A stretch of 50,949 nt of DNA from a virus. Location of the stretch: positions 1 to 50,949 of IMG/VR virus record IMGVR_UViG_3300046810_000362; one strand, written 5' to 3'. Each line of letters begins with the position of its first letter. Within the stretch, counting starts at the first letter, position 1. Shown here in pieces: positions 5,572 to 25,443 of this stretch. The notes under the pieces were generated by a model. It searched no databases. It was not told the DNA's origin and worked only from the letters and a program-made list of their open reading frames with translations. A program made the translations under genes and the position numbers.

Positions 5572-8042
5572 TGCCCCGCCAGTTCCTTCCCACGCTCCGC
5601 GGTCTGCTCGTGCCCAGGACCGCCGAGCCGTCCGCGCCCCCGCTCGCGCCCACCGAGACGAAGGACCTCCTGGCGGGAGGCGTCTACACGTCCATGTCGT
5701 TCGGCGGCGTCACGAACGTGTGGGGCACCCCCGGCCGCGCGGACGGCTGGGACCTCGAGCGCGTCATCGTCGAGGGCTACGAGCGCAGCATCTGGACCTT
5801 CAAGAGCATCGAGGCGATCAGCAAGCACGCCTCCACCCTGCCGATACAGATCGGCCGCGGAGGCGACGAGCGGCAGTTCGAGGAGACGCTCGAGGACCAC
5901 CCGCTCCTGCGCCTGCTGAACAAACGGGCCAACCCGCTCGAGACCGGCGACGTCTTCAAGAAGCGGCTGAGCGCCCAGTTGCTGCTCAGTAAGAAGGGCG
6001 TGTTCATCGAGAAGACGTTCAGCCGCGGCGGAGTCCTGGTCAGGCTCGACCTACTGCCCCCGGACCGCGTCCAGATCATCCCGGACTCCCGGAACGCGGA
6101 CTACGTGAGCCACTTCGAGTTCACGAACTACGCAGGCCAGATCCGTGAACTGAAGCCGAAAAACGTCATCTGGCTGAGGGATCCGCACCCCACCGATCCG
6201 TTCTGCGGCGTGACCCCGCTCGAGGCCGCCGGGTTGTCGGTCGACCTGGACGTGAAGGCCCGCACCTACAACATCAGTTTTATTGACAATGACGGCAGAC
6301 CGGGCGGAATCGTCGGTATCGACCTCGACGGCGTCGACGCCAACGAGGTCGACCGGATCCAGAAGCGACTCGCCCCCGGCGCGCACAACGCCGGACAGCT
6401 CACCCTCGTCGGTACAGGACCTGGTGGCGTCACCTACGTCGACACGTCCGCGCGGCCGCGAGAGATGGCCTACGAGACGCTGTCCAGCACAGCGAAAAAC
6501 GAGATTCTCTCCGCGTTCGGCGTGTACGAGAGCGTCATCGGCAACGCCTCCGAGCGGACGTACGCCAACGCCGACCGCGAAGAGTGGAACTTCTGGGCGC
6601 ACACCGAGCTCCCGCACCTCAACCTGATCGCGTCGGCGTTCGACCCGGACCTGTCCGACGACTGGGTAATCCGGTTCGACACCTCCCGAGTTCAGGCGTT
6701 GGAGTTCCCCCGCCGCCAGGCGCGCGAGGAAGCCCGCAAGGAGTTCGAATCGGGCCTGATCACGATCGACGAGTACCGCGAGATCGCGAACCGCCGACCC
6801 TTCAACACGCCGCAATCCCGCGCTCTGTGGATCAGCCCGCAGAAGGCACCCGTCCCGGCCAACGACCAGGACGCGGCCGCGCTCGGCCTGTCCCCGGACG
6901 CGGGCGCCGGAGGCCAACCCGGCGCCGACCCGAATGCCGCGCCGCCCGCGGCCGGCGGGGACCAGTCCGCCGCCGCGGTGGTCGCCGAGGCCCGCGCGCT
7001 CGAACCGGCCCCGACCGCCGCGGCCGACGTCGCCGCGGCCCGTGGCCAGGCGCCCCTCGATCTGTCCACCGGCCCCGCGGCAACCGCCGCTGACGACGTC
7101 GCTGCAGCCCGCGCCGACGTCACCGAGGCGGCCCCAGGAGAGGCAGCCGATGACGTCGCGCGTGCCCGCTCCAGCAGCATGCAGCCCGAGGACGGGCCCG
7201 CGGCCGGAGACGTCGAGGCAGCACGCGCCCAGCTCGAGACCAAGGCGCTTCCAGCCGATGGCTTCGAGGTCACCGACGCCGACTTCGACGCTCTGTCCAT
7301 GGCCGTAGAGGCGGCCCTCACCGCGCTGCTGGCACGCCAGGAAGGCGTCATAGCCGCCCGGCTCCGCGCCCCGAAGCTCCGCAAGCACACGCGGTTCTGG
7401 GAGCCGGAGAACGAGACCGACACCCGTAGCGGCGACGCGAACATCGACCAGGACCGCGTCGTCAGCGCCAGCCGCTGGGCAGAGGAGACCACCAACACCC
7501 TCGCCCCGATCCTGCAGCAGGCCGCGGCCGCCACCGCCCGCAAGCTGGGCCAGGCCGTCACGGGCACCGACACAGTGCCCCCGGCCGCGGTCGCTGCCGC
7601 GCTCATCACCGCGGCGTACGCCGGCGAGGCCGTCACCGCGTTTCTCGCCGAGCTCGCCGAGGTGCTGCAGAACGCCCAGGACACCCAGCCGAATCTCGAC
7701 CTCGAGACCCTCGTGCACACCGTGGGCGGCTTCTACAACTCGGCCGTGCCCGCCCTGGTGGCCCGGGTCGCCGAGACGTGCGCCGTCTCGACCATCAACG
7801 GGGCCGCGGACGCCGCAGCGGAGAGCGCCGGCCCCGGAGTCGTCCGGACGTGGGTCACCCGACAGGACGCCCGCGTACGGCCCGCGCACAAGGCCCTGCA
7901 CGGCAAGACCCTGCCGGTCGGCACCCCGTACGAAGTTGACGGCTTCCAACTCCGCTACCCCGGCGACCCCTTCGCGCCGATCGCCCTCACGATCAACTGC
8001 CGATGCCGCCTCCACTACGCCACAGACGAGGAGGTGAGCTGA
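5571..8042 (+). CDS. Portal protein fused to a MuF-type minor head domain
   Basis: The portal ring is the DNA entry and exit gate of the capsid; MuF proteins associate with it inside the head. Residues about 40-430 match an HK97-type portal (WTFKSIEAISKHASTLPIQI, LLPPDRVQIIPDSRNADYV, RTYNISFIDNDGRPGGI, SAFGVYESVIGNASERTYANADREEWNFW). Residues about 430-600 are an Ala/Asp/Pro-rich linker with repeats of the type DDVAAARA. The C-terminal part is a MuF domain with WVTRQDARVRPAHKALHG near residue 763 and the signature INCRCRLHY just before the end. At 823 residues it is far longer than a lone portal. GTG/ATG alternatives were not needed: ATG 5571 overlaps the preceding stop. No terminase precedes it. 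Confidence 0.92.
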   Translation: MPRQFLPTLRGLLVPRTAEPSAPPLAPTETKDLLAGGVYTSMSFGGVTNVWGTPGRADGWDLERVIVEGYERSIWTFKSIEAISKHASTLPIQIGRGGDERQFEETLEDHPLLRLLNKRANPLETGDVFKKRLSAQLLLSKKGVFIEKTFSRGGVLVRLDLLPPDRVQIIPDSRNADYVSHFEFTNYAGQIRELKPKNVIWLRDPHPTDPFCGVTPLEAAGLSVDLDVKARTYNISFIDNDGRPGGIVGIDLDGVDANEVDRIQKRLAPGAHNAGQLTLVGTGPGGVTYVDTSARPREMAYETLSSTAKNEILSAFGVYESVIGNASERTYANADREEWNFWAHTELPHLNLIASAFDPDLSDDWVIRFDTSRVQALEFPRRQAREEARKEFESGLITIDEYREIANRRPFNTPQSRALWISPQKAPVPANDQDAAALGLSPDAGAGGQPGADPNAAPPAAGGDQSAAAVVAEARALEPAPTAAADVAAARGQAPLDLSTGPAATAADDVAAARADVTEAAPGEAADDVARARSSSMQPEDGPAAGDVEAARAQLETKALPADGFEVTDADFDALSMAVEAALTALLARQEGVIAARLRAPKLRKHTRFWEPENETDTRSGDANIDQDRVVSASRWAEETTNTLAPILQQAAAATARKLGQAVTGTDTVPPAAVAAALITAAYAGEAVTAFLAELAEVLQNAQDTQPNLDLETLVHTVGGFYNSAVPALVARVAETCAVSTINGAADAAAESAGPGVVRTWVTRQDARVRPAHKALHGKTLPVGTPYEVDGFQLRYPGDPFAPIALTINCRCRLHYATDEEVS

Positions 8043-8043
8043 C

Positions 8044-8397
8044 GTGAACACCTACCCAGCCGCCCTCAAGCACCTGGTTGACGCCGACACCTACGACCTG
8101 GACATCGACCTCGGCTTCGAGATCCGCGTCCGGCAGCGCGTCCGTCTCCTGGGCCTGAACACCCCGGAGAAGAACACCGCCGAGGGCAAAGCCGCCAACA
8201 CCTGGGCCACCGACTGGTTCGCCCAGCACGGCCCCGACCTGGTGGTCGAGACCCACCGCAAGGAGAAGTACGGCCGCTGGCTCGCCACCATCACGGCCGC
8301 CGATGGCGCCTGCCTGAACACCGACCTGCTCGACGCCGGCCAAGCCGCCCCCTACGACGGCCACGGCCCCCGCCCCCTCCCCGAACCGAAGGAGTAA
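8044..8397 (+). CDS. Staphylococcal-nuclease-like (SNase, thermonuclease) domain protein
   Basis: This is a 117-residue OB-fold nuclease candidate, which would cut DNA or RNA using calcium. The motif VDADTYD (residues 12-18) matches the first SNase metal-binding loop. RLLGLNTPE (34-42) carries the equivalents of Arg35, Thr41 and Glu43, with Asn39 where the type enzyme has Asp40. EKYGRW supplies Arg78, the equivalent of Arg87. No signal peptide is seen, so it acts in the cytoplasm or virion. GTG 8044 begins two bases after the portal stop, implying coupled translation. Packaging beside the portal suggests delivery with, or processing of, phage or host DNA; that is inference. Confidence 0.85.
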   Translation: MNTYPAALKHLVDADTYDLDIDLGFEIRVRQRVRLLGLNTPEKNTAEGKAANTWATDWFAQHGPDLVVETHRKEKYGRWLATITAADGACLNTDLLDAGQAAPYDGHGPRPLPEPKE

Positions 8398-8687: not shown

Positions 8688-11600
8688 ATGCTGAATCGCC
8701 CCGATGCCGCTGAGTTGCAGGACCTGAGTGACGACCTCGAGGTCAAGGCCGCCCGCCGTAAGTGGAACCCCGCCCTGCACCCGCGCGACAGCAAGGGGCG
8801 CTTTATCGAGACGGGCGGAACCGTCCGGCTGTGGGGCGGCAAACTCGCGCGCGTCGTCCGCGCCCTCCCCAACGACCGCATCCTCGTCCAGGACCAGACC
8901 AGCCCGAACGAGTTCAACGGCCGCAGGCACACCACCAGCGCCAAGTGGGTGTCCATGGTCGCCCGCCCGGACGGCTCCGCCCCCACCGACAACGAGGACA
9001 AGGTCCAGGCGGAGGACGAGAAGCGGTACAGCGACCCGCGCCGCGGCAACGGCGTGGCCCGGGACGACGACGGCGACCCCGACACCCCGAACGACCCCCA
9101 CGACGCCGACGATCGCGGCCGTCCCATCGGTGACGATGACGACCCCGTCGGACCCCGCGAGAACGACGACCAGGACGAGCCCGCCGACGGCAAGCTGCCC
9201 GTCCACGTGCTGGCCCTGCCCAACCGGCCTCACGGGGCCGGCGCCCGTTTCCGGGACACCGCGGCCGTCCGCCAGCACTTCCTCGACCTCGCCGAGCGGC
9301 CGGGCCAGAAGCCGAAGATGGCGCAGTTCCTGCGGTCCGTCGCGGGCGACGACGACCGCCTGGAGACCTCCCACAACGGCAAGGTGGTCGCGCTCCGCGA
9401 CGACTCCACCGGCCGCTGGTACCTGACGGCAACCGGCACCGGGCAGCGCATGGACGCGGCTGGTGACTTCGCCACTCCGGACGAGGCCCTCAAGTTCGCG
9501 CGGCGCCTCGACCACAGCACGACCCCGGCCGGACAGAACTCGATGGGCCGTGGCGGATTCGACTTCTCGGATCCGGACCTCGACCAGGCCGCCGGCGCCT
9601 GGCGCTCGACTCAGGGCGAGAACATCCAGGCCGCCATCAAACGGGCCCGCCAGGAGTTCGACAGCTCCCAGCCCACTCCCGCGGCCCCGTCCGCCAACGG
9701 CAACGCCCCGGCGACGGTCAGCCGTGGGGATCTCAAGCCCGGCGACCGCGTCACGGTCACCGTCTCCCAAAGCGCCATCGAATGGCCGGAGAGCACCCGC
9801 GACAAGGCGAAGCCGGGAACGGTCACCGTCGAGGGCACGGTCGCCCCCACCTACTCGCCCGGCCCGGGTACCACCGGTGCACCCCTGGTGGACGTCACGC
9901 TGACCGGCCCGGACGGCAAGGTGATCGTGTCCGGCGACACCGTGCGCGTCATGCGCATGCCGAGCCAGGTCGAGGTGTCCGGAAGCGTCGACGGGTTCGC
10001 GCCCGAGGAGATGCGCGCCGACCGCGTCCGCGTCGGCGACGTCATCGCGCGCGGCTCCTTCGGGCACGTCGTCACGGACGTGCGCCGGTACGACGGCGGC
10101 CGTACCTTCACCACCCGCAACCTCGGCGGCCGCGGTGAGATCGACCAGTTCGGCACGCGCTCCGACACGATGCTGGACGTCATCCCGAAGGCCCGGCGCC
10201 GGCAGGAGGACGTCCAGCGCGACATCCCCAACCGCACACAGCAGCACCCCAACAGCACCGACGCCAAGCGCGCGGCCGCGGGAATCCTCAACGACTGGGG
10301 CAAGGTCAACGGGCTCGCCGGGCAGCAGTGGCCGGACGGGGCGCCGGAGGAGTTCCGCGCCCTGGCCCAGCACATGCAGAACGTCACGGACGTCCCGAAG
10401 GGGGCCGAGGGCTACCAGCAGAACGCCGACGCCATGCGCGGGGCCCTGGCCTCCCTCGACGATCTCGACACCGACGGCCTCGACCAGGACCTGGTGAAGG
10501 CGCTGCACCGGCTCGAGGAGAACCTGGACGCGAACGCCGACCGGTTCGCCGCCGACTCCCGTGCGATCAGTGAGAAGAAGCGGCAGCGTGCGGCCGGGGC
10601 CGACTCCCCGCAGCCCGCGGCGCCGGAATCTGCCACCCCGGAAGCGAGCACCAGCAGCGACGCGCCCACGGGCGAGACCACTACCCCGGACGAGCCGCTG
10701 AAGCACGCGTGGGACGACCCCGAGGGTCTGGTCACGCTGACCATGCCGTCAGTCGTCGCAGATCACGTCTCCGAAGAGGGGACGTGGCCCCTGCAGGACC
10801 CGGACACGCGCAAGGCCCTTGATGAGGCCAAGCGAGGTAGCAACGGCACGATCAAGGTGACCGCGCCGATCGAAGTGCACCACATGCTGCTTGAGGCCGC
10901 GGAAGTGCTCTCGGGCAATGGTGGAGACGCCGAGCCGAACGAGATCCGGGGTTACAACAACTACGCCAAGCGCGTCCACGAGGCAGATGCCGAGGTGACG
11001 CGGCGCCGCGAAGAGAGGAACGCCAACGCGCCGGGCCCGGAGACCGCGGAAACGGGGAACGCCGCAGACGGTGACGCCCCGTCGGCCGACGCGCCGAACA
11101 CAGCCGAGCCCAGCAACCAGGACGACAACGGCACCGTCACCCTGACCCCCGACGAGGTGTCCCGGCAGCTCGACGCGGTACGCCCCGAAGGCTCCAAGGC
11201 CCCGTCCTCCATGGACGACGGGGAGATCCGCGACGAGATCGTCTCCCTGATGGAGCGGGAGATGCAGAACGGCGGGGAACTGTCGGGCGTCGACCGCACC
11301 CGCCTGGCGGTCCTCGAGGCAGAGGAGGGGCGCCGCGCAGGCCGCCCGCCGAAGCGGGAGGAGTCGAAGCCGAAGCCGCCCGCGGAGGAGCCCGGAGGCC
11401 TGTTCGACGTCGGCCAGGACGAGCCGCAGCCGATGTTCGCCGACCCGAACAACCCCGACGACCGGCCCGCCGACGAGTTCGGCACTCCGGACATGTTCGC
11501 CGACGCCGAGGGCCGCGACACCAGCAAGCTGCGCCCCGTGCAGACCCGCGCGCCCCAGGACTTCCAGGCCGGGGACCGGTTCGTCGACGCCGACGGGCGC

Positions 11601-14600
11601 ACGCACACCGTGGCGGAGCAGCCGGTGCGCACCGGCCGCGGCCGCGTCCGCGTCGTCGACGAGGACGGCCGGGAGCACTTTCTCAACCCGGACAACGAGC
11701 TGCGGGTGCTGCACCCGGACGAGGAAGCCCCCGAGGTGCCAGAGGCGAACGCCCCCGAGGGCAACATCCCCGACGCAGACGCGCCGAAGAGCGACGCCCC
11801 GTCCACGGACGCCCCGGAAGGCGAGACGCCGGCGGACAACGCCCCGGAGACCGAAGCACCAGAGGCGGAGACCCCGGGCCCGGACGCTGCCGACGTTCCG
11901 AGCAACGCCGACGCCCCGGCGGACGCCGAACCCGCCGCGGCCCCGGACAACCAGGTCCGCATCGACCACAGCGGCACCGGCACCACCGTCCGCTTCCCCA
12001 CGCCGAACGGCATGGTCAGCGACGAAGAGTTCGCGGTGCTGCGCCGCCTGGGCTTCAAGGGCAGCAGGGACAGGACACAGCCGCGATTCTTCTACTTGCC
12101 CAGCAACATGACGCTGTCGCGCCGTGAGGACAAGGTGCGTCAGCTCAAGGAGTGGCTGGACGGACGGGGCGTTGCTTACCAGGCGCCGCAGGACGACGCC
12201 GAGAAGCCGGACCTGACACCGGAGCAGCTCGAGCAGCTCAAGGACCGGTACCACGCTCCGGCTGGCACCTGGGCCACTACGGACTTCCAGCCCGGCGACG
12301 AGGTGTGGACCGGCCGTTCCTGGGACACGGTCGACTCGATCGGCCCGAAGAACCTGCGCCTGCAGGGCCGCGGTTCCACGCCGTACGACAGCGTCCTCGC
12401 CCGCCGCCGCGGCGGCGAGATCCGCACGATGTTCGACGCCCCGGCCGACGACGGTACGCCGCGCCCGGGTGCCGACGACCCCAAGACCATGCGGGACGAG
12501 CAGATCGCCCAGGAGCTCGCCCACCTTCGCGGCGCCACCCTGCCCGAGGGCAACGACCCGTCGGCCCGCGCCGTGCGCCGCCAAGTCACCGCCCGTATCC
12601 GCGCCCTGAACGACGCCCAGTCCGAACGGAACTTCGCCCGTCGCCGCGACGAGATGAGCCGCCGCGACCAGGCCGGCCTCGTCCGTGACCCTGCCCGCAT
12701 CGCCCGGTTGAAGGGCGAGCAGGTCCAGGGCCGGGACGGTGCGCCCATCGGCATCGTCTACCCGGAGAAGAAGGGGAAGTGGGTGTTCGTCGACCGCGAC
12801 GGACGCACCCCCACCCGCGAGAGGTACCCGAACCGCGCGGCCGCCATCACCGCCCTCAACAAGATCACCGACGACCGCAACCAGCGGACCGGAGAGGGCT
12901 GGAAGCACTCGGCATGGGACGACGTCCAGCCGGGCGACACCGTCCGCGTGCCCGAACTGGGCCGCCCGGAGGGCGCCCGCGGCCGCACCGTGACCGGCTG
13001 GTCGGAGCCCCTCGAGGTCTCCGAGATCCGCCGCGGCGACATGGGCCAGGTCCTCATCACTGGCCGCCGCGGCGACGAGGACGTCCAGCTCGAGGTACCC
13101 CGCACCGACGCCACGTTCGGCACGTCCAAGCCCGGCACGGTGCCGGACCGAGAGCCCAGCGACGCCGGCGGCGGCATGGACTGGCGCCAGATGCGCCCCG
13201 ACGACTTCGGCCAGGACGAGATCCCGGCCGCGGACGCGAACCAGAACGAGCCCCGTCCCACCGACGAGTTCGGCACGCCGGACCTGATCGCCAACGGCAC
13301 CCCCGACACCGCCAACACCCCCGGCGACGAGACGGAGACGGCCCGCACGGTCCTCGACCGGCTGCCAGAGCTCCCGCCCCTGCCCAACCTCACCGGCCTG
13401 TCCCGGCAGAACAAGGACGACGTCCGGCGCATCCGCGGCGACTACGCCAAGATCCGGGAGTCCCTCGACGGCATCCTCGCCGGGGACCCGCCGACCGGCG
13501 ACGCCCGCGAGGACCTGCGGCGTGTGCGCGAGCAGCTCGACTACGTCGCCGGGCGGCTGAGCGGGGACCACCTGCCCGACGCCGACGCGGCGCAGTCCGC
13601 ACGGGCCAGCCTGCTCGAGCTGGGCCAGGACCTGGACCGCACGCTCGCCGCGCTGCCCGAGCGAACCCCGGAGTCTCAGGGAGACGGCCCCAACGGGGGC
13701 ACCCTGTTCCACCCGTGGGACATCCAGGACGGCGACCTGGTCCGGTTCGACGCGGAGAACCCCGCCGACCGTAACCGTGGCCTCGCCTCGTACTTCGGCA
13801 CTTTCCGCGGCCGCGCATCTTCGGCGTCCGGTGACCAGGGCCGCACCCTGGTCGCCTACCAGAGCCGTCGCTGGAACGACGAGCGGCAGCGCTGGGAGAA
13901 CGACCAGAGCCAGCACACCGTCACGATGCCGACCCGCGGTCTCGTGGAGCGCTTCACCCCCGAGCAGTGGGACGCCTGGCAGCGCCCCGGGCAGTCCGAG
14001 GGCGACCGGAACACGGCTGACAACGCCACGGCGCCCGACGCGCCGATCCGGGACACGTCACCGGCGGACATGACCGACGAGGACATCGAGGCCGAGCTCG
14101 AGGAGCTGCAGGCGTGGCAGAACCGGCACGTCGCGAACACCGGGGAAGGCCCGCGCGTTCAGGGCAACGCCATGCTCGCTCTCTCTCCTGTTGGCAACCG
14201 CCGGCGCCACCTGTACGAGGAGCAGCGCAAGCGCGCGGTCGCCCGCCAGGACCGGGAGAAGCGGGAGAAGGAGAAGCAGGAGCGGGCCGAGGCGCTCGCG
14301 CGTGCCGAGATCGGCAAGCGGAACGATGACGGCTCGTACCCGGTGACCGTCGACGGCGAGGACGCTGGCACCGTCAGCCAACTCGCCCGTAGGTGGCGCT
14401 ACACCAACGCCGAAGGCGACACGGCTCCGGCCGAGCACACGAGCCGCGCCAACGCGGTAGCTGCGCTCGTCCGCAACCGCGACATCCGCCAGCAGCAGGC
14501 CACCGACGCCGACCGGCAGGAGCAGTCCCGCAGCGAGGCACCCGAGGGTTGGGTACTGGGAGACCGCGCCGACGTCGCCGAGAACGACATCATCCGCGTG

Positions 14601-17600
14601 CCGATCACCCGGCAGGACGCCGACGGCCGCCCGTACCCCGTGGGCTGGAGGCAGCCGGTCCACGTAAACAGCGTGACCCAGAACGACAACGGGACGATGG
14701 TCCTGTCCGTCTCCAACCTCGACGGATCGCGCTCGGACATCAGCCCTGTCTTCCTGAGCCACCCCGACGACACCTTCGCGTGGGCCAACGACCGGACGCG
14801 GCCGGAGCCGACCCCGCCGTGGCGGCACGAGCTCCGCGCCCGTATGGCTGACATCGGCGACGACATCGCCACCCTCCAGGGCAAGGAGGGCTTGCAGGAC
14901 CCGGAGCGGATTCAGCGTCTCCAGGACCTCATCCAGCGCGTCAGCCGGGGCGAGACGGACGACCTGCAGGGCGACCTTCGCCGCATCCGCGACGAGGCGG
15001 CGTGGCTGGAGAGCCAGTTCACCGACCCGGATGTGGATCTCCCGTACGAGACCCGTACGTACAAGTCGTGGGCCACCGCAGCCCGTATGAAGGCCGAACG
15101 CGACCTTCGGTATCCGGACTTCCAGAACACCGACGGAAGCACCCTCAACGGGCCGGGCAACGGCCCTGACGAGCCGGCCACCGCTGACGCCCCCGACTGG
15201 GCCGACGATCTGGGGGACGGCGTTTGGCTGGACAGGCCGAAGAGGGGTGGCGGTCCCCGCAACATCTACGTCGCCGGTCAGATTGAGGGCCTCCTCGGAC
15301 GGGAGAAGCCGCAGGGCCGCTACTACTGGTGGCGGCCGGGCGGCCAGACCGGCGAAGGTCGATACGACACCCCCGAGGAAGCGGCTCGCGGCTTCGCCCG
15401 CGACATGCAGGAGCGGGGCCTGCCGAGCCTGAGCGGCCCCCGTGACGACGAGAGTGACTCCCGACAGTCCAGCGACGACCGGGCCAGCCGGGCGCAGGAC
15501 CTGTTCGGCGAGGGCATGAACGCCGTAGGCGGCGATTCACTGTCCGAAATGCAGGAGCTCGACGACCGACTCGGCCGCGCCGACTCCGCCGACGACCGGG
15601 ACGCGGAGCTCCGCGACATCGCCGACCGTATGGACGCGCTCGCTGAGCAGTACGAGCTCGCGGGCCCGCAGGGTGAGCTCGCTGCCGATCGGTTCCGTCG
15701 CGCTGCGCGCATTGCCCGCGGTGAGCAGGACGACCGCAACGAACGCCGCGGTGACGACAACGGCCAGGCCGACGGCGACCGCCGTGTCGACGGCGAGTCC
15801 ACCGACGGCCAGAACGACGACAACCGCGACGAGACGACGGGCGAGGACACCCCGGCGAGTGGGGACGACGAGCAGCAGAACGACGACCAGCAGGACGACC
15901 GTCAGGACGACGGGGAGAGCCGCGGGCAGCGCCGCGACGGCGACCTCGACGGTGGCGCAGCCGACCCCGACGGCGAACCCGACGGCGGCGGCGCGGGCAC
16001 GCCCGACACCCCTGGCGACAGCGACAACTCGAGCAGCGACGGCGACGGCCCCAACAGCCCGGATGACGAGGGGGACGGCCCGGACGCGGGCGCGAACGAC
16101 GACGAGGAGGAGGACCGGCGGAAGCGTCGGCGTCGCCGCCGTAACCGCGGGGGCGGCAACGGCGGTCCCGGTGGGGGCGGTCCCGGTGGTCCCGGCCTGC
16201 CGCACCTGAGCCTGCCGGACTTCAACGTGCCGAACGCGACCGGTGGTGGAGGCGACGGCAGCGCGGGCGGTCACGACGGCGGCCGATCCGCTGCCCGTCA
16301 CCGCGATGTGGACTCCCTGCGGAACGCCTGGAGGACCGGCGACGGTCTCACCCCAGCCGAGGACACCCCCGAGCGGCGTGCCCTCCTGGCACAGGCCGCG
16401 GATCGTGAAGGCCTCGCCCTGTCGCCTGACGGCGGTCTGGCCATGTGGCCCGAGCCGCAGGACAACGGCAGCACCGTGTGGCGCTTCGCTCAGGCCCGCA
16501 ACGGCACGAACCTGCCCGGCATCACCCTGGCCTCCGACGACCCCGAGGAGGCGCGCGCGCTCGCCGGACGGTTCGAAGAGATCAGCGACCGTAACGGCGA
16601 CCCCTTCGACTGGCACCAGGCGTGGGGCCCGAGCAGCGTGGCCGCGTGGCGAGACGGGGAAGGCCGCAACCTCCCCCAGGCCCTCCGCGCTGTTCAGGAC
16701 GACTACGAGCGGGAGCGCAACGGCGCCTTCACACTGCCCGACGACCTCACCGGTCTGGACGATCCCGACCTCGAGGCCGCCTACCGGCAGGGTCTCGGCC
16801 CGGAGGACGAGCTCCGCGTCATAGCGGAGATGGACCGCCGCGACGGCTACGTCGACGAGCGGATCCGCGCCGCTGTACCAGACACGCCGCCAGCGAACGC
16901 CGACGAGGCAGAGCGCCGCGGCCGCGCCATGGACGAGGCCCTCGGCTTCGGTGACACAGACGTCACGCAGCCCGCGCCGGCCACCCCCGGACGGATGCGC
17001 CGCGAGTTTGACGCCCTCGACGAGGAGCGATTCCAGGCCGCCATGCAGGCCACCGGCGGCCGCATGCTCAGCCCCGAGGCCGAGGCCCAAGGCATCGACC
17101 CCCGGGCCCTGTTCTCCGGCGGCAAGTACAGCAACAAGCGCGCGAAGGAACTGGCCTCGCCCGAGCTGAACCACTGGTTCGACGGCGACGACGAGACCCC
17201 CGGAAACGGCCGCCTCACGTACCCGCAGTACCGGCAGCGGGAAGCCGACCGTGCCCTTCGCGCCGAATTCGCCGACTGGGACGAGGCCCGCTACCGGCAA
17301 GCCATCGACTTCACGAACGGCTACTTCTTCCGCCGTGAGTACAAGTACGGCTTTACCGACTTCGACGAGCGGGAACTGTTCTCCGGCGGCAGCCTGTCCG
17401 GGCGCGACCGGTGGCGGCAGTACGCCAGCGAGGAACTGCAGGAGTGGTTCGACAACCACGGTGGCCGCCAGACGTTCGCCCAGTACAAGCAGGGCCGCCG
17501 CGACGGCGACCGCGCGGAACGACACCAGCACGAGGAGGAGCTGCGCCGCACCGCTGAGGAAGGCACGCCCGAGGGCACGGGCCCCCTCACGGCTGACGAC

Positions 17601-20600
17601 GTCACTCCCGCGCCATCGGCCTCAATGCGCGGTGAGAGCGAGGAGGACGCCGCATTCCGGTTCGGCGGCCACGACCGGATGAAGGAGTTCGCCGGCATGG
17701 CCGAGTTCCGCCCGGACGAGATCGCCCAGGGCGAGTCTGTGTGGCTGAACGGTCAGCGGATCGGCACCATCGTCAACCTGAACCGGTCGAATCCCGACCG
17801 CGGGCAGGTGTGGAAGGCCCAGCCGTTCTTCGGCCTGGGCGACGACCGCCAGAGCCGTTCCCAGTCCCGTGACACCGCTATCGCCAACCTCGTCGTCCGT
17901 GCCCTGCAGGACGGCCCCACGGATTCGGCGAACCCCAACGAGGACGTGTGGGACAGCGTGACCTGGCGCCTGGCGAACGTGTCGCGGGGGCTGCCGGAGC
18001 TGCCGGAGTCTCTCCGCAACGACCCGGAGGCGCGCGCCCGGTACGAGCGTCTGTCCTCCCTGGTCGACGCCTTCCGTGATCAGCACTCGCCCAGCGGGAA
18101 CCTCCGGCAGGACCTGGCGCAGGCGCGCGACGACTTCGCATGGCTGCACGACGCCGTGAGCGGCTCCAAGCAGAAGAGTCAGCAGCGCGAGGCACTGTCC
18201 AACCTGGACAGCCGCACCTACTGGGCGGGCCAGATACTCGATGCCCTCGGCGGCCCGGAGAACGACCTCGAGCGGCCCCGTGCCGAGGACGAGCCAAATA
18301 GCGATGGCGACGCGCCGTCCCCCGCGGTTCCGACGCCCGACGAGCCCGTGAACACCCCGGAGGACACCGTCCGTCCGCCGGCGGAACCCGAGCCGGAACC
18401 GGACCCGGACCCGATCGGTGGCCAGCCCGCGCACTGGGCCCGCGTCGAGGACCTGGCGCCCGGCGACATGGTCCGTATGAACGGCACCACCAAGAAGGGC
18501 CGTCCGGTCCAGCGTGCTGGGTACTGCTACACCGCCCCTGTGCGCGTTGAGGTGACCCGCCGCGGTCGGACCGAGCACATGTGGCGGACCTGGGTCACGG
18601 AGAACCCGGACGGCACCGGCGCGGCCGGGAACGTCTACACGTCCATCAACGCCACCGCGGCGCGCGCCGAGGCCCCGGACGATGTCGTGCCCGGGTCTCC
18701 GGCCAGTGGCGCTCAGGCCTCCCTCCGGTCCGGTGATCTGCCCGACCAGATCCCGGCGGACCGTAGCGGCCGCGGCCTGTTCCCCGGCAGCACTGTCACC
18801 GGCTCCAACGACCGTGAAGGCACCGTCACCGGCGCCACCAACACCACCGTGGCGGTGCACTGGTCCGACGGCAACGACGACACCGCGCTCTCACCGACCG
18901 CGGTCACCGTCACCGACAGCCAGCGCCCCGACGGTTGGACCGCGTCCGGCCAGCGTGTGACCCCGCAGAACGTCGTCAGCGACACCGATGGCGCGCTCCT
19001 CGGGCCCGTTAACAACGTCGACGGCGACAACGTCACCATCACCACGGCCGACGGAACCGTCACCCGCAGCGCGGGAGACCTCAGCGTCACCGGTGAAGTC
19101 CGCGACGACGTCCCCGCCGCGGCACCGGTGACCGGCATTGACGAGCCGGCGGCCGCGGACCTCAAGGACGGCGACGTCGTGGTCCTGGACCTCGACGGCA
19201 CGCTTACCACCGTTGCGATCACCAGCCCGCCCACCAGGGACGGGGACCGCGTCACCCTCCAGTACGCCGACACCACCACCGGCGAGATGGGCGAGATCGA
19301 CGTCGACGCCAGCGCGGTCCTCCCGCGTGCCCAGGGGCCGGACGGCAACGCTCCCGATCTCGGCCCGGACGACGCTCCCGAGCCCGACGACGACCTGGTC
19401 GTGCACGAGCCGCCGCACCGTGTGGAGCCGGTGACGGGACCGACCGTCGACCCGGAGCTCAGCTCGAGCGACCGGGACGCCATCGGCGACCACGCCGACG
19501 GGCCGGACGACGACCCGGACGCCCAGCAGGCCGCGGCACGGATCACGGCCGACCTGCCCGTCACCCCGGAGCAGGCGTCGGCACTGGCCACGCAACTGCG
19601 CGCGTCCGCCGACCCGTCGACGCTCGAGGGACGTGCCGCACTGCGGGCTGCCGATCACCTCGACCGGGCCGCCGGTCGAACCCCGCCCGCGGGCCTCGAC
19701 CGGCCCCGCCCGTCGAACGCCGCTCAGGTCAGCGAGGGCGACCTGGTCGCCATGCCTGACGAGCGCCACGGAGACCAGGTGCGCGTCTTCCGCGTCATCG
19801 ACGCCGAGGACGGGCCCGGAGGCGTGCGGAACTTCCTCCTCGAGGACGAGAACAACCAGTGGCGGCGCCGAGTTGTCCACGGGGCCATGCCTGTGTGGCA
19901 GCTCCCGGAGGCCGAGCCGGACCCCGTCACCCCGCCCGACGCCGACGACACCGACGCGACCCCGGACCCTTCGAGCACCCCCGGGATCCCCGGCGGCCCG
20001 ATGCGCCGCGCTGGAGGGGACCCGGCCACGCCGAGCACTCCGGCCACGCCGGACGCCTCGAGCACGCCGGACGAGCCCACGACGCCCGTCGCCCGGGTTC
20101 GCCCGGGAAGCCTGCGCCGCGGCGACGTCATCGACGCACCCGTGAGCCGGACCGGCTACCAGTTCAACGGGCACCGACGGCTGACCATCATCAGCGAGCC
20201 GCAGCGCAACGGCTGGTGGATGCAGCTCACCGGTGTCGACGAGGACGGCAACGTCCACGACTTCGGTCTGCACAGCGGCCGCGCCGTGAACGTCTACGAC
20301 CGGAACCGGCCCACCCCGGCCCTGCCGCCGGCCGGAGCTCCACGCGACCCCAACCCGGCGCCGCAGTCCGCCGCCGACCGGATCATTGCCGACCACCACC
20401 GCGCGGTCGCGGCCCGCATCATCGACGAAGCCATCGCGGGCACCGAGCCGCCCGGCGACATCCACGCCCTGCGTGAAGGCATCGCTCAGCGCCTCACCCC
20501 CGAGGCCTTGCGCGATGCCCGGCAGGCGGCCCGCCAGGACGCCCTTGACGCCCTCGACGCCGCCGGTGTCACCGGCGACGACCGCAAGGCAGCACGGCAG

Positions 20601-22241
20601 GCACTCAAGCAGGCCCGGCAGGACGCTCACACCGCGACCGTGCGCGCCGCCCTGCGCACGATCAACGACCTCGAGCCGCTCCCCGACGAGAGCGACGAGG
20701 ACCTGGCGGCCCGCGCGAGGGACCTGCTTCGGCTCATCCCGGACGGGATCGCCGGACAGCACGGGCAGCCCGACGCCGACGGAGACGCCGACGTCGCCCG
20801 CACCGTTGCGGGGCACACCGATGACGCCGTGAACGCGCTCCTGCAGCAGCTCCAGGCCGCGGGAGTGGACCCGGGCGACGCCGAGCGGATCGCGCGCACC
20901 CTCCTCCGGCAGATGGACGGGTCGCGGCAGGCCACCGCCCGTCGGATTGCACGGCGCGTTGCCACTGTGTCCCCGGACGCCGGACGGCAGCCGGGTCTCC
21001 TAGCCCGGATCGTCGCTCTCCTGATTCGCATGGCCAAACGCCTTGCGGAGCTCGTGAAGGAAGGCGCCCGGAAGATCGCCGAGAAGTACCGGACCGCGCG
21101 CGAGCGCATGGCCCGCCTGCGGGCGTTCCTCGGCCGCCTGGCCCGCCGTGTCCGGCAGTGGCCGGAGTCCCGCCGTCTGGCGCGCCTGCACCGCGCGGTG
21201 AACCTGCCCGACACGGACGGCGACTCGCTGGCCGCGCGGATCTCCCACTGGGCCGGACTGATGCCGGAGCCGGGGCGGTTCGGGCAGGCGCAGCAGCGCG
21301 TCACCTTCTGGCGCCCGACCACGTGGGGGCGGCTTGCAGCCGGACGGCTCCCCGACCGGTCGGACCGCATCCAGTGGACGCCGGACCGTGCGGCCGACGG
21401 CGGCCCCGGCCTGACCGCGCTCCGCCACATGGCGGCCCTGCGGGCGGCCGGCAACGACGTCGACCAGGACGTGACCCGCCGTCTGTCCGCGGCCCTGGGC
21501 GACGACTTCGGCGACGACCCGCACGCCACGCTGCAGCACGCGGACGACTACGTGGCCACCAGCGAGCGGCGCCTGGTCAACCTGCAGGCGGCACGCAGCG
21601 GCGCGACCATCCCGGATGACCCGGACCTCGAGATCGAGATCACCGCGGCACGCGCCGAGTTGTCGGCCGCCCGCCGGGAGTACGGGGACCTGCGGACCCG
21701 GTACGCCGCCGCGGTGCCTGACGCCGTGGCTGCAGCCCTGGCCGACGTTCGCGACATGGGGCCCGAGGGCAACGCCTCCATCGTGTTCGGCCCGGACACC
21801 AACCCGGACGCCGAGCGGGCCGTACGGGGCGTGCAGCGCCTCATCCCGCGAGCGTGGCTCAACACCCCCGAGGTGCGCCGCCTGACGGCCGTGGACGGCA
21901 CGCAGGGCCGCTACGAACCGGAGGGACAGCGGATCACGGTCGCCGACCTGGCCGACGAGGGAATGGGCACCGCCGGGCACGCCCTGGCGCAGCACCTCGC
22001 CCAGCACCTCGGCGACCTGGACGCCGCGCAGCGCGCGTTCTGGTTCACCAGGACGCACACCGGCCGGCCCGGCGCCCGCCGCATGCAGCGCAGCGCCCTG
22101 AGCCGTCTCCTGCGGAGGCAGCAGACGCAACCGGAGACCGGTGACAGTCTCGCCCGGTCTATTCAGGCGATGTTCAGCGGCGACTGGTACCAGGACGACG
22201 ACCTGCGGGCGTTCCTCCTGGGCCTGATTGCCACTCGATAA
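8688..22241 (+). CDS. Giant 4,517-aa modular protein with a degenerate zincin-like C-terminus (polyvalent-protein-like)
   Basis: The frame is uninterrupted for 13.5 kb. It opens with a basic segment (RKWNPALHPRDSKGRFIE) common at the start of phage structural proteins. Then come about ten beta modules of the form xxGDxVRVP...GW..P..V (near residues 350, 960, 1200, 1420, 1680, 1965, 3260, 3680, 3810), three helical modules of about 100 residues (near 1570, 2060, 3110) and acidic linkers. A Gly-rich hinge is near 2500, and a 75-residue tandem duplication sharing LFSGG and a WFD motif lies at about 2770-2950. The last 130 residues (MGTAGHALAQHLAQHLG to the DDDLRAFLLGL end) resemble the metallopeptidase-type tail of giant phage polyvalent proteins but lack the Glu of HExxH. 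In-frame GTG 8670 and ATG 8676 lie inside the promoter element, so ATG 8688 is preferred. Packaging or ejection with DNA is inferred from its place between portal and protease. Confidence 0.85.
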   Translation: MLNRPDAAELQDLSDDLEVKAARRKWNPALHPRDSKGRFIETGGTVRLWGGKLARVVRALPNDRILVQDQTSPNEFNGRRHTTSAKWVSMVARPDGSAPTDNEDKVQAEDEKRYSDPRRGNGVARDDDGDPDTPNDPHDADDRGRPIGDDDDPVGPRENDDQDEPADGKLPVHVLALPNRPHGAGARFRDTAAVRQHFLDLAERPGQKPKMAQFLRSVAGDDDRLETSHNGKVVALRDDSTGRWYLTATGTGQRMDAAGDFATPDEALKFARRLDHSTTPAGQNSMGRGGFDFSDPDLDQAAGAWRSTQGENIQAAIKRARQEFDSSQPTPAAPSANGNAPATVSRGDLKPGDRVTVTVSQSAIEWPESTRDKAKPGTVTVEGTVAPTYSPGPGTTGAPLVDVTLTGPDGKVIVSGDTVRVMRMPSQVEVSGSVDGFAPEEMRADRVRVGDVIARGSFGHVVTDVRRYDGGRTFTTRNLGGRGEIDQFGTRSDTMLDVIPKARRRQEDVQRDIPNRTQQHPNSTDAKRAAAGILNDWGKVNGLAGQQWPDGAPEEFRALAQHMQNVTDVPKGAEGYQQNADAMRGALASLDDLDTDGLDQDLVKALHRLEENLDANADRFAADSRAISEKKRQRAAGADSPQPAAPESATPEASTSSDAPTGETTTPDEPLKHAWDDPEGLVTLTMPSVVADHVSEEGTWPLQDPDTRKALDEAKRGSNGTIKVTAPIEVHHMLLEAAEVLSGNGGDAEPNEIRGYNNYAKRVHEADAEVTRRREERNANAPGPETAETGNAADGDAPSADAPNTAEPSNQDDNGTVTLTPDEVSRQLDAVRPEGSKAPSSMDDGEIRDEIVSLMEREMQNGGELSGVDRTRLAVLEAEEGRRAGRPPKREESKPKPPAEEPGGLFDVGQDEPQPMFADPNNPDDRPADEFGTPDMFADAEGRDTSKLRPVQTRAPQDFQAGDRFVDADGRTHTVAEQPVRTGRGRVRVVDEDGREHFLNPDNELRVLHPDEEAPEVPEANAPEGNIPDADAPKSDAPSTDAPEGETPADNAPETEAPEAETPGPDAADVPSNADAPADAEPAAAPDNQVRIDHSGTGTTVRFPTPNGMVSDEEFAVLRRLGFKGSRDRTQPRFFYLPSNMTLSRREDKVRQLKEWLDGRGVAYQAPQDDAEKPDLTPEQLEQLKDRYHAPAGTWATTDFQPGDEVWTGRSWDTVDSIGPKNLRLQGRGSTPYDSVLARRRGGEIRTMFDAPADDGTPRPGADDPKTMRDEQIAQELAHLRGATLPEGNDPSARAVRRQVTARIRALNDAQSERNFARRRDEMSRRDQAGLVRDPARIARLKGEQVQGRDGAPIGIVYPEKKGKWVFVDRDGRTPTRERYPNRAAAITALNKITDDRNQRTGEGWKHSAWDDVQPGDTVRVPELGRPEGARGRTVTGWSEPLEVSEIRRGDMGQVLITGRRGDEDVQLEVPRTDATFGTSKPGTVPDREPSDAGGGMDWRQMRPDDFGQDEIPAADANQNEPRPTDEFGTPDLIANGTPDTANTPGDETETARTVLDRLPELPPLPNLTGLSRQNKDDVRRIRGDYAKIRESLDGILAGDPPTGDAREDLRRVREQLDYVAGRLSGDHLPDADAAQSARASLLELGQDLDRTLAALPERTPESQGDGPNGGTLFHPWDIQDGDLVRFDAENPADRNRGLASYFGTFRGRASSASGDQGRTLVAYQSRRWNDERQRWENDQSQHTVTMPTRGLVERFTPEQWDAWQRPGQSEGDRNTADNATAPDAPIRDTSPADMTDEDIEAELEELQAWQNRHVANTGEGPRVQGNAMLALSPVGNRRRHLYEEQRKRAVARQDREKREKEKQERAEALARAEIGKRNDDGSYPVTVDGEDAGTVSQLARRWRYTNAEGDTAPAEHTSRANAVAALVRNRDIRQQQATDADRQEQSRSEAPEGWVLGDRADVAENDIIRVPITRQDADGRPYPVGWRQPVHVNSVTQNDNGTMVLSVSNLDGSRSDISPVFLSHPDDTFAWANDRTRPEPTPPWRHELRARMADIGDDIATLQGKEGLQDPERIQRLQDLIQRVSRGETDDLQGDLRRIRDEAAWLESQFTDPDVDLPYETRTYKSWATAARMKAERDLRYPDFQNTDGSTLNGPGNGPDEPATADAPDWADDLGDGVWLDRPKRGGGPRNIYVAGQIEGLLGREKPQGRYYWWRPGGQTGEGRYDTPEEAARGFARDMQERGLPSLSGPRDDESDSRQSSDDRASRAQDLFGEGMNAVGGDSLSEMQELDDRLGRADSADDRDAELRDIADRMDALAEQYELAGPQGELAADRFRRAARIARGEQDDRNERRGDDNGQADGDRRVDGESTDGQNDDNRDETTGEDTPASGDDEQQNDDQQDDRQDDGESRGQRRDGDLDGGAADPDGEPDGGGAGTPDTPGDSDNSSSDGDGPNSPDDEGDGPDAGANDDEEEDRRKRRRRRRNRGGGNGGPGGGGPGGPGLPHLSLPDFNVPNATGGGGDGSAGGHDGGRSAARHRDVDSLRNAWRTGDGLTPAEDTPERRALLAQAADREGLALSPDGGLAMWPEPQDNGSTVWRFAQARNGTNLPGITLASDDPEEARALAGRFEEISDRNGDPFDWHQAWGPSSVAAWRDGEGRNLPQALRAVQDDYERERNGAFTLPDDLTGLDDPDLEAAYRQGLGPEDELRVIAEMDRRDGYVDERIRAAVPDTPPANADEAERRGRAMDEALGFGDTDVTQPAPATPGRMRREFDALDEERFQAAMQATGGRMLSPEAEAQGIDPRALFSGGKYSNKRAKELASPELNHWFDGDDETPGNGRLTYPQYRQREADRALRAEFADWDEARYRQAIDFTNGYFFRREYKYGFTDFDERELFSGGSLSGRDRWRQYASEELQEWFDNHGGRQTFAQYKQGRRDGDRAERHQHEEELRRTAEEGTPEGTGPLTADDVTPAPSASMRGESEEDAAFRFGGHDRMKEFAGMAEFRPDEIAQGESVWLNGQRIGTIVNLNRSNPDRGQVWKAQPFFGLGDDRQSRSQSRDTAIANLVVRALQDGPTDSANPNEDVWDSVTWRLANVSRGLPELPESLRNDPEARARYERLSSLVDAFRDQHSPSGNLRQDLAQARDDFAWLHDAVSGSKQKSQQREALSNLDSRTYWAGQILDALGGPENDLERPRAEDEPNSDGDAPSPAVPTPDEPVNTPEDTVRPPAEPEPEPDPDPIGGQPAHWARVEDLAPGDMVRMNGTTKKGRPVQRAGYCYTAPVRVEVTRRGRTEHMWRTWVTENPDGTGAAGNVYTSINATAARAEAPDDVVPGSPASGAQASLRSGDLPDQIPADRSGRGLFPGSTVTGSNDREGTVTGATNTTVAVHWSDGNDDTALSPTAVTVTDSQRPDGWTASGQRVTPQNVVSDTDGALLGPVNNVDGDNVTITTADGTVTRSAGDLSVTGEVRDDVPAAAPVTGIDEPAAADLKDGDVVVLDLDGTLTTVAITSPPTRDGDRVTLQYADTTTGEMGEIDVDASAVLPRAQGPDGNAPDLGPDDAPEPDDDLVVHEPPHRVEPVTGPTVDPELSSSDRDAIGDHADGPDDDPDAQQAAARITADLPVTPEQASALATQLRASADPSTLEGRAALRAADHLDRAAGRTPPAGLDRPRPSNAAQVSEGDLVAMPDERHGDQVRVFRVIDAEDGPGGVRNFLLEDENNQWRRRVVHGAMPVWQLPEAEPDPVTPPDADDTDATPDPSSTPGIPGGPMRRAGGDPATPSTPATPDASSTPDEPTTPVARVRPGSLRRGDVIDAPVSRTGYQFNGHRRLTIISEPQRNGWWMQLTGVDEDGNVHDFGLHSGRAVNVYDRNRPTPALPPAGAPRDPNPAPQSAADRIIADHHRAVAARIIDEAIAGTEPPGDIHALREGIAQRLTPEALRDARQAARQDALDALDAAGVTGDDRKAARQALKQARQDAHTATVRAALRTINDLEPLPDESDEDLAARARDLLRLIPDGIAGQHGQPDADGDADVARTVAGHTDDAVNALLQQLQAAGVDPGDAERIARTLLRQMDGSRQATARRIARRVATVSPDAGRQPGLLARIVALLIRMAKRLAELVKEGARKIAEKYRTARERMARLRAFLGRLARRVRQWPESRRLARLHRAVNLPDTDGDSLAARISHWAGLMPEPGRFGQAQQRVTFWRPTTWGRLAAGRLPDRSDRIQWTPDRAADGGPGLTALRHMAALRAAGNDVDQDVTRRLSAALGDDFGDDPHATLQHADDYVATSERRLVNLQAARSGATIPDDPDLEIEITAARAELSAARREYGDLRTRYAAAVPDAVAAALADVRDMGPEGNASIVFGPDTNPDAERAVRGVQRLIPRAWLNTPEVRRLTAVDGTQGRYEPEGQRITVADLADEGMGTAGHALAQHLAQHLGDLDAAQRAFWFTRTHTGRPGARRMQRSALSRLLRRQQTQPETGDSLARSIQAMFSGDWYQDDDLRAFLLGLIATR

Positions 22242-23451: not shown

Positions 23452-23478
23452 GCACACGCGAACGGCACGGTGCCCGGC
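23442..23478 (+). promoter_or_regulatory. Two-box element copy N (degenerate first box)
   Basis: AGGACAGTAGG at 23442-23452 (compare GCGACAGTAGG in copy I), exactly 13 bases, then CACGGT at 23466-23471 and GCCCGGC. It overlaps the stop of the RMF-like gene and precedes the protease gene. Confidence 0.4.
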
Positions 23479-23511
23479 GGCCCCACTGTCCACCGCCGGA
23501 GGTTTCCCGCC

Positions 23512-25443
23512 GTGCCGAGCGCTGCTCCACCCACCAGATCCGCACGCCCCAGCACCACCCAGCGAGGCACCAGCCGGGCAATCTACGCCGTCACCGGCGT
23601 GGTCGACGAGGTCAACGACCTCATCGTGCCCGGCGCCTTCGCCCGCACCCTCGCCTCACGGCCCGTCAAGACCGTGTGGCACCACGGGTGGAAGGACCCC
23701 GTCGGCGTCGTCGTCGAAGTCGAGGAGTGGCTTCCGGGCGACCCCCGATTCTCCGAGGTCCCCGGCGACTGGCCTGCCGAGGCCGGCGCCCTCGTCGCCA
23801 CCGTGGTCTACAACCTGCGCACCCGCCAGGGCCGCGACGCCTACGAGCAGGTCAAGCAGTGGCATGACCACCAGCAGGCCGCGTTCTCCATCGGCTACCG
23901 CGTACCGACGGAGTCCGCGACCCTCCGCAGCGACGGGGTGCGCGTCATCCACCACCTGGACCTGTACGAGGTCTCGCCCGTCCTGCACGGCGCGCACCCA
24001 CTGACCCGCTCTCTCGAGGTGAAGTCCGCCACCGGGAACGACCGGCTTGAGTACAAGTCCACGCCCTCCCATGTCGAGATCGACGTCGTCGCCTCGCCGA
24101 AGGGCCAGGACGCCGTCAAGTTCGCGGGCCTGGTGGTGAAGGCTGCCGACACCGGCCGCGTGCTGATGATCCAGCGGGCACTTGACGACGACGACCCGGC
24201 AGCGGGGACGTGGGAGTTCCCCGGCGGGGGCCTGGAAGACGGCGAGGACTCCCTCGCGGCCGCGCTGCGCGAGTGGGGAGAGGAGACCGGATCGACGCTG
24301 CCCGGAACGACCAGCGTCGTCGGCTCGTGGACGGCCCCGAACGGCATCTACCGCGGCTACGTCGCGGTCGTCCCGACCGAGGACTCCGTGCCGATCAACA
24401 CGCCGCACGACGAACGCCGCGTCGCCAACCCGGACGACCCCAAGGGCGACGCAACGGAGGTCACCGCCTGGTGGCCGATCACCGCTCTCCCCGACATGCC
24501 GCTCCTGCGGCCGGAATGCCGAGAGACGCCGTGGGCACTCCTGGCCGGCGCCGCCCTCCCGCAGGCCCCGGCCCCGAAGCCGTTCCGGCCCGTCTCTCAG
24601 GACGTCATCGACGCCACGCAAATCGCCGACGGAGCCATCACGGCCCAGCAGATCGCCGCCGCGTCCGCAGAGAAGAAGTCCGCGCGCGCCGCGGTGCGAT
24701 CCGCGCGCGCCCTGCCGCGCATCGAGCACAAGTCCGCCCGCTCCATGGTCACTGAAGCGAAAGCTCGCTTCACCGCCGTCTCAGGAGACTCCGTGAACCC
24801 GATCAAGCCCCTCCCTGCGTCCTTCGAGCAGATCCGCGACCGTCTTGCCCAGGCTGTCCGCGCGTTGCTCGCCGCCGATGAGAACACCTGGGCGTGCATC
24901 CACGGCACGTACCCCGACCACGTCATTGCCTCGGTGCACAGCGACGGAGAAGAGGAGGAGCACTACCAGGTGCCCTACACCCTCGACGACGATGACGTTG
25001 CTCTGGGCACGCCGAAGCGCGTGGAGTTGGCGACCGTCGTGGTCCCCGACGACGATGACGAACCCCGCGAGGCCGACGAGGACGAGGAAGCCGAGGCCCG
25101 CGTCGTGCAGCCGACCGTTGACGCGCTCAGCGACGCGACCGCCCGTATCAGCACCACCAACGCGGGCCCGGAGCAGCTCCAGGGCGTCCGCGACAAGGTG
25201 CGTGACCTGATCGCGGCCCTGTCCGCCAAGGGGCTCGACATCGAGGAGGACGGTTCCGCTCCCGCCGGCCGCCCGGCGGCCGACGTCCCGATCGGGCTGG
25301 ACCTGTGGGACGAAGAGACCTTCGGCGACGTCGGGGACGACGAGGGCGACGAGGCGGACACCGAACCGGCCCCGGGGCCGGAGAACACCGTCCGCCTGGA
25401 CGCCGAGGAAGTGAAGGCCGCACTCGCCCTGATACGGAGCTGA
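23512..25443 (+). CDS. Prohead maturation protease fused to a Nudix hydrolase, with acidic C-terminal region
   Basis: Residues 20-175 match the HK97-type prohead serine protease, which cleaves scaffold and capsid during maturation: DEVNDLIVPGAF, His57/His58 in VWHHGW, Ser126 in AAFSIGY and VSPVLHGAHPLT. Residues about 200-360 form a Nudix domain with a perfect 23-residue box (G239-S261: G-x5-E-x7-REWGEETGS) after WEFPGG. Such enzymes split nucleoside diphosphate-linked compounds. Residues about 400-640 are helical and acidic (QIRDRLAQAVRALLA, VVPDDDDEPREADEDEEAEA) and could act as scaffold. GTG 23512 is preferred over 23470 because GGAGG lies 9 bases upstream. The fusion reads straight through in one frame. 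Confidence 0.9.
   Translation: MPSAAPPTRSARPSTTQRGTSRAIYAVTGVVDEVNDLIVPGAFARTLASRPVKTVWHHGWKDPVGVVVEVEEWLPGDPRFSEVPGDWPAEAGALVATVVYNLRTRQGRDAYEQVKQWHDHQQAAFSIGYRVPTESATLRSDGVRVIHHLDLYEVSPVLHGAHPLTRSLEVKSATGNDRLEYKSTPSHVEIDVVASPKGQDAVKFAGLVVKAADTGRVLMIQRALDDDDPAAGTWEFPGGGLEDGEDSLAAALREWGEETGSTLPGTTSVVGSWTAPNGIYRGYVAVVPTEDSVPINTPHDERRVANPDDPKGDATEVTAWWPITALPDMPLLRPECRETPWALLAGAALPQAPAPKPFRPVSQDVIDATQIADGAITAQQIAAASAEKKSARAAVRSARALPRIEHKSARSMVTEAKARFTAVSGDSVNPIKPLPASFEQIRDRLAQAVRALLAADENTWACIHGTYPDHVIASVHSDGEEEEHYQVPYTLDDDDVALGTPKRVELATVVVPDDDDEPREADEDEEAEARVVQPTVDALSDATARISTTNAGPEQLQGVRDKVRDLIAALSAKGLDIEEDGSAPAGRPAADVPIGLDLWDEETFGDVGDDEGDEADTEPAPGPENTVRLDAEEVKAALALIRS

Follow-up and report, generated by a model that had tools for sequence, protein, structure and literature searches.

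A cysteine-poor giant protein, probably virion cargo, with a conserved scaffold and an exchangeable middle in a Streptomyces phage family

Introduction

DarB of phage P1 protects injected DNA against type I restriction. It is a head protein, and its first 30 residues are sufficient for capsid targeting (PMC9024508). A wider class, the polyvalent proteins, was surveyed by Iyer et al. (2017, PMC5512222); the available part of that survey names both an adenine methyltransferase-SNF2 dyad and UvrD among their enzymes, assigns an active zincin metallopeptidase to about 36% of them (so that such a domain is not required), and mentions OJH72069.1, a giant UvrD/SNF2 protein of 12,242 residues from an actinomycete plasmid.

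Here we compare with these systems a giant gene located in the window, by which we mean the whole stretch of viral DNA analysed (50,949 nucleotides, IMG/VR record IMGVR_UViG_3300046810_000362). The literature searched, which included few subscription journals, yielded no description of a chassis with payload exchange, a dead processing domain, a recurring tag and exclusion of cysteine.

Results

A single frame of 4,517 codons under purifying selection

The gene occupies one frame of the plus strand, open from the ATG at 8688 to the stop at 22241. Chance frames in this DNA (72% GC) reach at most 1,055 residues, on the opposite strand of the giant gene itself, and not 4,500; moreover, the gene is intact in 29 of 29 homologues, with protein lengths from 3,284 to 7,690 residues. 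The homologue set comprises 27 IMG/VR contigs, the window and Streptomyces phage Gilgamesh; they represent one phage family with several near-identical members, and counts over them are not independent. The methionine ahead of L/Q/V-N/M-R, which is ATG 8688, is the sole start candidate kept across homologues, in-frame starts further 5' not being kept; the Gilgamesh start is annotated four codons further upstream. Comparison of the window with Gilgamesh gave an overall dN/dS of 0.37; the N-terminal part had 0.27 and the C-terminus 0.19, and all segments fell between 0.19 and 0.51. The gene is under purifying selection. The original prediction of a 4,517-residue single-frame giant between portal and protease is therefore borne out in both its size and its location (Table 1).

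Relatives and where they occur

Among annotated phage records, the whole gene is found only in Gilgamesh (gp48, QFG13240.1, 4,624 residues), where it is annotated as "hypothetical protein" and is 71-77% identical to the window giant; a literature search on this phage returned no paper. IMG/VR holds 27 further contigs with the giant gene, all with a matching portal, and a portal-based scan for a wider giant family found nothing new. All 16 matches in bacterial genomes fall in Streptomyces, and many of the contigs concerned measure about 125 kb. Searches of PLSDB located the giant gene together with head genes on Streptomyces plasmids of 125-132 kb, and a distant form on a 145-kb plasmid of Thermobispora bispora; since the gene sits on these plasmids, part of the giant-bearing family appears to live as phage-plasmids. 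A conjugative-type plasmid of S. cellulosae carries the gene as broken pieces only, with the C-terminal scaffold split over three ORFs (L151, 19803-21873), a remnant lying outside any head gene set.

Besides the giant, the region between the portal-MuF and prohead protease genes contains the SNase-type nuclease gene and one ORF without assignment. The slot between portal and giant varies: it holds the SNase-type nuclease in the window, a membrane protein in Gilgamesh and a tagged metallopeptidase-like ORF in homologue G007. A small gene resembling Rmf/CrpP (ribosome modulation factor) lies between giant and protease in Gilgamesh (L001, 31896-32105) and on the Thermobispora plasmid (L152, 13797-13997). 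Other observations at the locus include a full-length gene for the DNA polymerase III alpha subunit, which borders the head genes (window 818-4447, minus strand), a gene on the Streptomyces sp. 11x1 plasmid that corresponds to the prohead protease-NUDIX and is annotated as 2'-5' RNA ligase family, and, just 5' of the portal region on the 125-kb S. zaomyceticus plasmid (L149, 1701-4097), tgmA/tgmB (ATP-grasp-modified RiPP) with a methyltransferase gene.

Conserved ends and a variable middle

Alignment of the homologues separates conserved regions (residues 1-330, block K at 815-1010 and the C-terminal half, 2540-4517) from a middle whose length and content differ from one homologue to another. 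Profile searches located the beta module GDxVRVP at residues 1405-1460 and 1955-2009, with a weak third copy (E 0.01) at 3254-3294, and copies of the helical module at 1558-1645, 2049-2115 and 3102-3169. Iteration added two further repeat families, 231-324/2582-2673 and 1349-1399/1889-1936/3282-3331. The 75-residue unit, duplicated in the window giant, is also present at the C-terminus of MuF minor capsid proteins from other actinophages. All the repeats proposed from the first inspection of the sequence (beta, helical and duplicated 75-residue modules) were thus recovered by iterated profile search, and the acidic linkers and Gly-rich hinge could be placed (Table 1).

Table 1. Features of the giant gene and its neighbours (positions in the window; residues of the giant protein)
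Feature	Position	Strand	Residues and remarks
Portal protein fused to MuF domain	5571..8042	+	upstream of giant gene
Small SNase-type nuclease	8044..8397	+	between portal-MuF and giant gene
Giant gene	8688..22241	+	4,517 aa, 492 kDa, pI 4.75, one Cys; orthologue Gilgamesh gp48
Conserved N-terminal part	8688..9677	+	1-330; barrel-like 41-95; RWYLTATG module 231-324
N-terminal tag region RKWNPALHPRDSKGRFIET	8757..8813	+	24-42; candidate capsid-loading signal
Payload module A	9720..10592	+	345-635; 9/29 homologues; also plasmid methyltransferase-helicase giant
Payload module B	10710..11057	+	675-790
Conserved middle block K	11130..11717	+	815-1010; separates two payload slots
Payload module C	11955..13127	+	1090-1480; 1159-1483 common to giant UvrD-helicase proteins of actinomycete plasmids
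Payload module D	13335..13952	+	1550-1755; modelled as four-helix bundle, then barrel
Payload module E	14055..15092	+	1790-2135; 12/12 homologues without DarB cassette, 0/17 with
Payload module F	15195..15422	+	2170-2245; absent from Gilgamesh
Block G	15480..15722	+	2265-2345
Acidic linker, Arg run, Gly-rich hinge	15723..16307	+	2346-2540
Conserved block T1	16320..16952	+	2545-2755; second RWYLTATG-type module at 16431-16706
75-residue unit, copy 1	17004..17237	+	2773-2850; missing in part of family
75-residue unit, copy 2	17256..17492	+	2857-2935
Conserved beta-module array T2	18435..19901	+	3250-3738
Conserved mostly helical C-terminal region	20355..21737	+	3890-4350; basic amphipathic stretch 4080-4170
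Dead zincin domain	21738..22238	+	4351-4517; former HExxH = HALAQ at 21978-21992
Prohead protease (S78) fused to NUDIX domain	23470..25443	+	downstream of giant gene
Major capsid protein	25609..26961	+	after prohead protease-NUDIX

A DarB-like cassette replaces most payload modules in 17 of 29 homologues

A cassette of about 1,690 residues, formed by a DarB-type adenine methyltransferase and an SNF2 helicase, is found in the middle of 17 of the 29 homologues. Its methyltransferase core presents the motifs TP, GSGSG and NVPF, and its helicase is of SNF2 type (Pfam SNF2-rel_dom, ResIII and Helicase_C). Over 92% of its length the cassette aligns with the DarB-like antirestriction protein that Burkholderia phage BcepIL02 encodes (E 4e-152); P1 DarB is matched in both the methyltransferase (E 3e-26) and the helicase. 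According to the module table of the 29 homologues, the 17 carriers have none of modules A, C, D, E or F, while the other 12 always have module E, with A-D and F in varying sets; the split between module E and the cassette has a probability of 1.9e-8 under random assignment, a descriptive figure given that the homologues are related. One homologue (G006) presents a UvrD-type helicase in place of the cassette (PF00580, E 5e-13), and the giant of the 125-kb S. zaomyceticus plasmid carries UvrD by annotation. The DarB-less genomes, the complete Gilgamesh genome among records that are mostly fragments, were also searched for a DarB-like gene at another locus, and none was found.

Mapped on a tree built from the last 620 residues, the payload labels require 3-4 changes, against a mean of about 10 for shuffled labels. 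This argues that the middle is exchanged between relatives, the payload being mostly inherited and sometimes replaced.

The payload of the window's own copy

Searches of the window giant against Pfam, PHROGs and NCBIfam gave no accepted domain, the matches to Pfam Big_4 and Myosin_VII_N being weak, partial and below cut-off. These domain searches found no recognised enzymatic domain and no adenine methyltransferase-SNF2 pair in its payload, and no MuF domain in the protein. An AlphaFold2 model of payload residues 1085-2250 showed several domains with pLDDT of 80-90 (a four-helix bundle and barrels) and a pTM of 0.31. The fold search with this model reached at best a Z of 10, with four-helix bundles such as DGR Avd, and returned no enzyme-like match; hits of this kind may reflect just a common arrangement of helical bundles. 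The earlier statement that no enzymatic domain is recognisable in the middle is thus right for the window copy, although the same locus does carry enzymes in relatives, as described above.

Two of the modules have counterparts outside the family. Module A also occurs in a 4,806-residue protein with methyltransferase and SNF2 matches, encoded on an 81-kb S. albidoflavus plasmid, and module C in UvrD-helicase proteins of 8,752 and 10,905 residues from larger plasmids. Their presence in such giants indicates that the window payload and the known polyvalent giants draw on one pool of parts. A role of the giant as tape measure or adhesin was also considered and dropped: the tape measure gene lies elsewhere, and the payload is swapped in modules.

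A dead zincin domain at the C-terminus

The Thermobispora homologue, which shares both the locus and the N-terminal tag, was detected by a profile of the Streptomyces-phage C-terminal domain (E 2.9e-9 at a Z of 10,000). This homologue retains an intact HELAHAME, and the alignment is ungapped around the motif, with HALAQ of the window opposite HELAH. All 29 Streptomyces-phage homologues have replaced the catalytic Glu by Ala, Val or Gly and the second His by Gln or Ala, and seven have also lost the first His; an active HExxH site is not present in the window giant. The metallopeptidase-like end of the original prediction therefore stands as homology to a zincin but not as activity, the domain being catalytically dead. 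Despite the lost catalytic residues, it is among the best-conserved parts of the giant and has therefore probably retained a function in binding or in structure.

A tblastn search of phage records for an intact zincin returned only Gilgamesh, one of the 29 homologues with a lost site; the intact form came from the Thermobispora plasmid. Sequence profile searches of the PDB with the C-terminal half gave nothing convincing, the hits being designed or coiled helices and others at chance level. An AlphaFold2 model of the C-terminal 648 residues had a mean pLDDT of 67, low in the zincin part, and its fold matches were no better than common helical arrangements.

A separate 337-residue ORF (L054, 859-1869) lies upstream of the shortest giant, that of G007, with the tag WNAALHPRDRFGRFIETG and an intact HEIGH. 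Its match to Pfam LPD1 (large polyvalent protein-associated domain 1) is weak and below cut-off, and we regard it as a candidate solo tagged metallopeptidase-like protein.

An N-terminal tag common to unrelated large ORFs

The motif W-x3-L-HPRDxKGRF near the N-terminus has a core that is nearly invariant across the giant family. An exact DNA-pattern scan of IMG/VR for the tag returned 27 stretches. Outside the giant family it lies no more than about 10-40 residues from a plausible start of large ORFs, and those whose upstream sequence was scanned follow portal or capsid-protease genes, with different portal families. What these proteins have in common with the window giant is a segment of just 14-39 residues that surrounds the tag. 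When 8,176 ORFs, a set chosen for its relation to the giant family rather than as an unbiased sample, were screened with a relaxed pattern, all occurrences were at N-termini of this kind except for a single portal fusion.

Modelled on the capsid targeting of P1 DarB by its first 30 residues, the tag may be the capsid-loading signal of the giant; the DarB N-terminus itself differs and does not contain the motif. Three tagged large ORFs of other phages (L114, 6489-9605; L128, 6762-13199; L126, 6559-12351) are free of cysteine; one of them has a PI3/PI4-kinase-type match and another NUDIX and Rho_N.

Near-absence of cysteine

Taken together, the 29 giants contain five cysteines in 147,920 residues, and 25 of them have none. 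The window giant has one, where 49 would be expected from codon-position base use. Gilgamesh gp48 has none in its 4,624 residues. The named proteins of the Gilgamesh head and tail contain 0.29% (at that rate, zero in gp48 has a probability of 1.5e-6), the non-virion genes of the region 1.13%, and plasmid giants that share some parts 0.19-0.41%. Virion proteins not known to be injected, such as capsid, are also low in cysteine. P1 DarB has nine cysteines and no tag; injection in general therefore does not depend on either feature. We read the near-absence of cysteine as support for the passage of the giant in the virion.

Discussion

The analysis leads to the proposal that the giant is a polyvalent-type virion-cargo protein, a conserved scaffold with an exchangeable payload that is packed in the head and delivered with the DNA; we consider this probable. 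The scaffold would comprise the tag and a barrel at the N-terminal end and, towards the C-terminus, further barrels, the helical region and the dead protease domain. From features read in the sequence (the scaffold/payload split, the exclusivity of the cassette, the dead zincin, the recurrence of the tag and the depletion of cysteine) we infer packaging, injection and a target for the protein. The original reading as a polyvalent protein is strengthened by syntenic homologues with the same ends that carry DarB-like or UvrD enzymes, and by modules found in plasmid giants. Taking the gene family as a whole, unrelated activities come together (a methyltransferase, a helicase of SNF2 or UvrD type, and the zincin fold), the window copy being one with no enzyme found.

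Mechanistically, the giant would be made together with the head proteins, and its N-terminal tag would draw it into the prohead at the portal/MuF vertex. It would then be packed with the genome and pass through the tail, with the DNA, into a newly infected Streptomyces cell; there, the payload would act in the first minutes, chiefly for the incoming DNA. For 17 of the 29 homologues, this payload would be the DarB-like methyltransferase and SNF2 translocase, giving a P1-like protection from type I restriction. The window payload consists of small barrels and helical bundles without a recognised enzyme, and could for that reason bind or shield (DNA, host defence or nuclease proteins) rather than catalyse, which is speculative. 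A more ambitious version, in which W-x3-L-HPRDxKGRF is a portable capsid-loading tag with which many actinophages load unrelated cysteine-free cargo, the giant a chassis for cassettes and the window payload a non-enzymatic injected protection protein, is put forward tentatively, as a combination that we hold to be possible but somewhat doubtful.

Alternatively, the main role of the giant could be structural, as a core, scaffold or head-size factor of the head that is packaged but inactive in the host, with the DarB and UvrD enzymes as passengers; P1 DarA/Hdf or an internal virion protein would be the models. The position among head genes, a cysteine content as low as in capsid and tape measure, the strongly conserved scaffold ends and a window copy without recognised enzymes all fit such a role. 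However, lengths that spread from 3,284 to 7,690 residues, with modules gained and lost, are unlike a size-determining part, and the payload modules are common to plasmid giants that sit among plasmid genes. We judge the structural role unlikely.

That the giant serves host takeover or anti-defence, being synthesised in the infected cell and left out of the virion, is clearly improbable: the enzymes of the relatives could also act on newly made DNA, but the giant gene adjoins the portal, the ORFs that carry the tag are portal-adjacent or, in one case, fused to a portal, and the near-zero cysteine groups the giant with virion proteins and not with other genes. A decayed, functionless remnant that stays open by chance, as might be suggested by the loss of the catalytic Glu and second His and by the search of related genomes, which found no DarB-like gene outside this locus, is very hard to reconcile with the purifying selection seen in every segment, a frame unbroken in all homologues, non-DarB modules with a conserved distribution of their own, and the different look of a true broken remnant on the S. 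cellulosae plasmid.

Under the preferred reading as virion cargo, an unannotated protein of some 4,500 residues becomes a testable delivery system with natural payload swaps on one scaffold, and lends itself to direct experiments on the way in which tailed phages of Gram-positive hosts select proteins and deliver them with DNA. The cysteine signature could serve to recognise virion cargo from sequence alone, and the short candidate loading tag is common to unrelated proteins.

Comparison with known systems supports placing the giant with the polyvalent proteins as a kind, as judged from its sequence. Like those in the available part of the survey (PMC5512222), it is a giant multidomain protein encoded among the virion genes of a portal-terminase phage, with methyltransferase-SNF2 or UvrD enzymes in its relatives, a zincin-type domain and modules common to plasmid giants. 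Unlike the proteins described in that part of the survey, the window copy has no recognised enzyme and its zincin is dead, and the giant family combines a fixed scaffold, payload exchange at a single locus and an N-terminal tag. The resemblance to P1 DarB and the DarB-like protein of BcepIL02 lies in the cassette of the 17 homologues, DarB-like over most of its length, and in the position of P1 darB, which also adjoins portal and protease genes; the cassette is, on the other hand, absent from the window and Gilgamesh, and in relatives it is embedded in a scaffold of 5,400-7,700 residues nearly without cysteine. MuF minor capsid proteins with C-terminal extensions (PMC5576092) share the 75-residue unit, and the giant gene follows closely after portal-MuF, but the giant has no MuF domain, which is fused to the portal instead. 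The plasmid UvrD/SNF2 giants are alike in that window module C matches the 8,752- and 10,905-residue UvrD proteins; they differ in lying among plasmid genes, in their higher cysteine content and in not being found by a search with the C-terminal scaffold. The closest of all, Gilgamesh gp48, is an orthologue that differs from the window giant in being without module F and is annotated only as a hypothetical protein.
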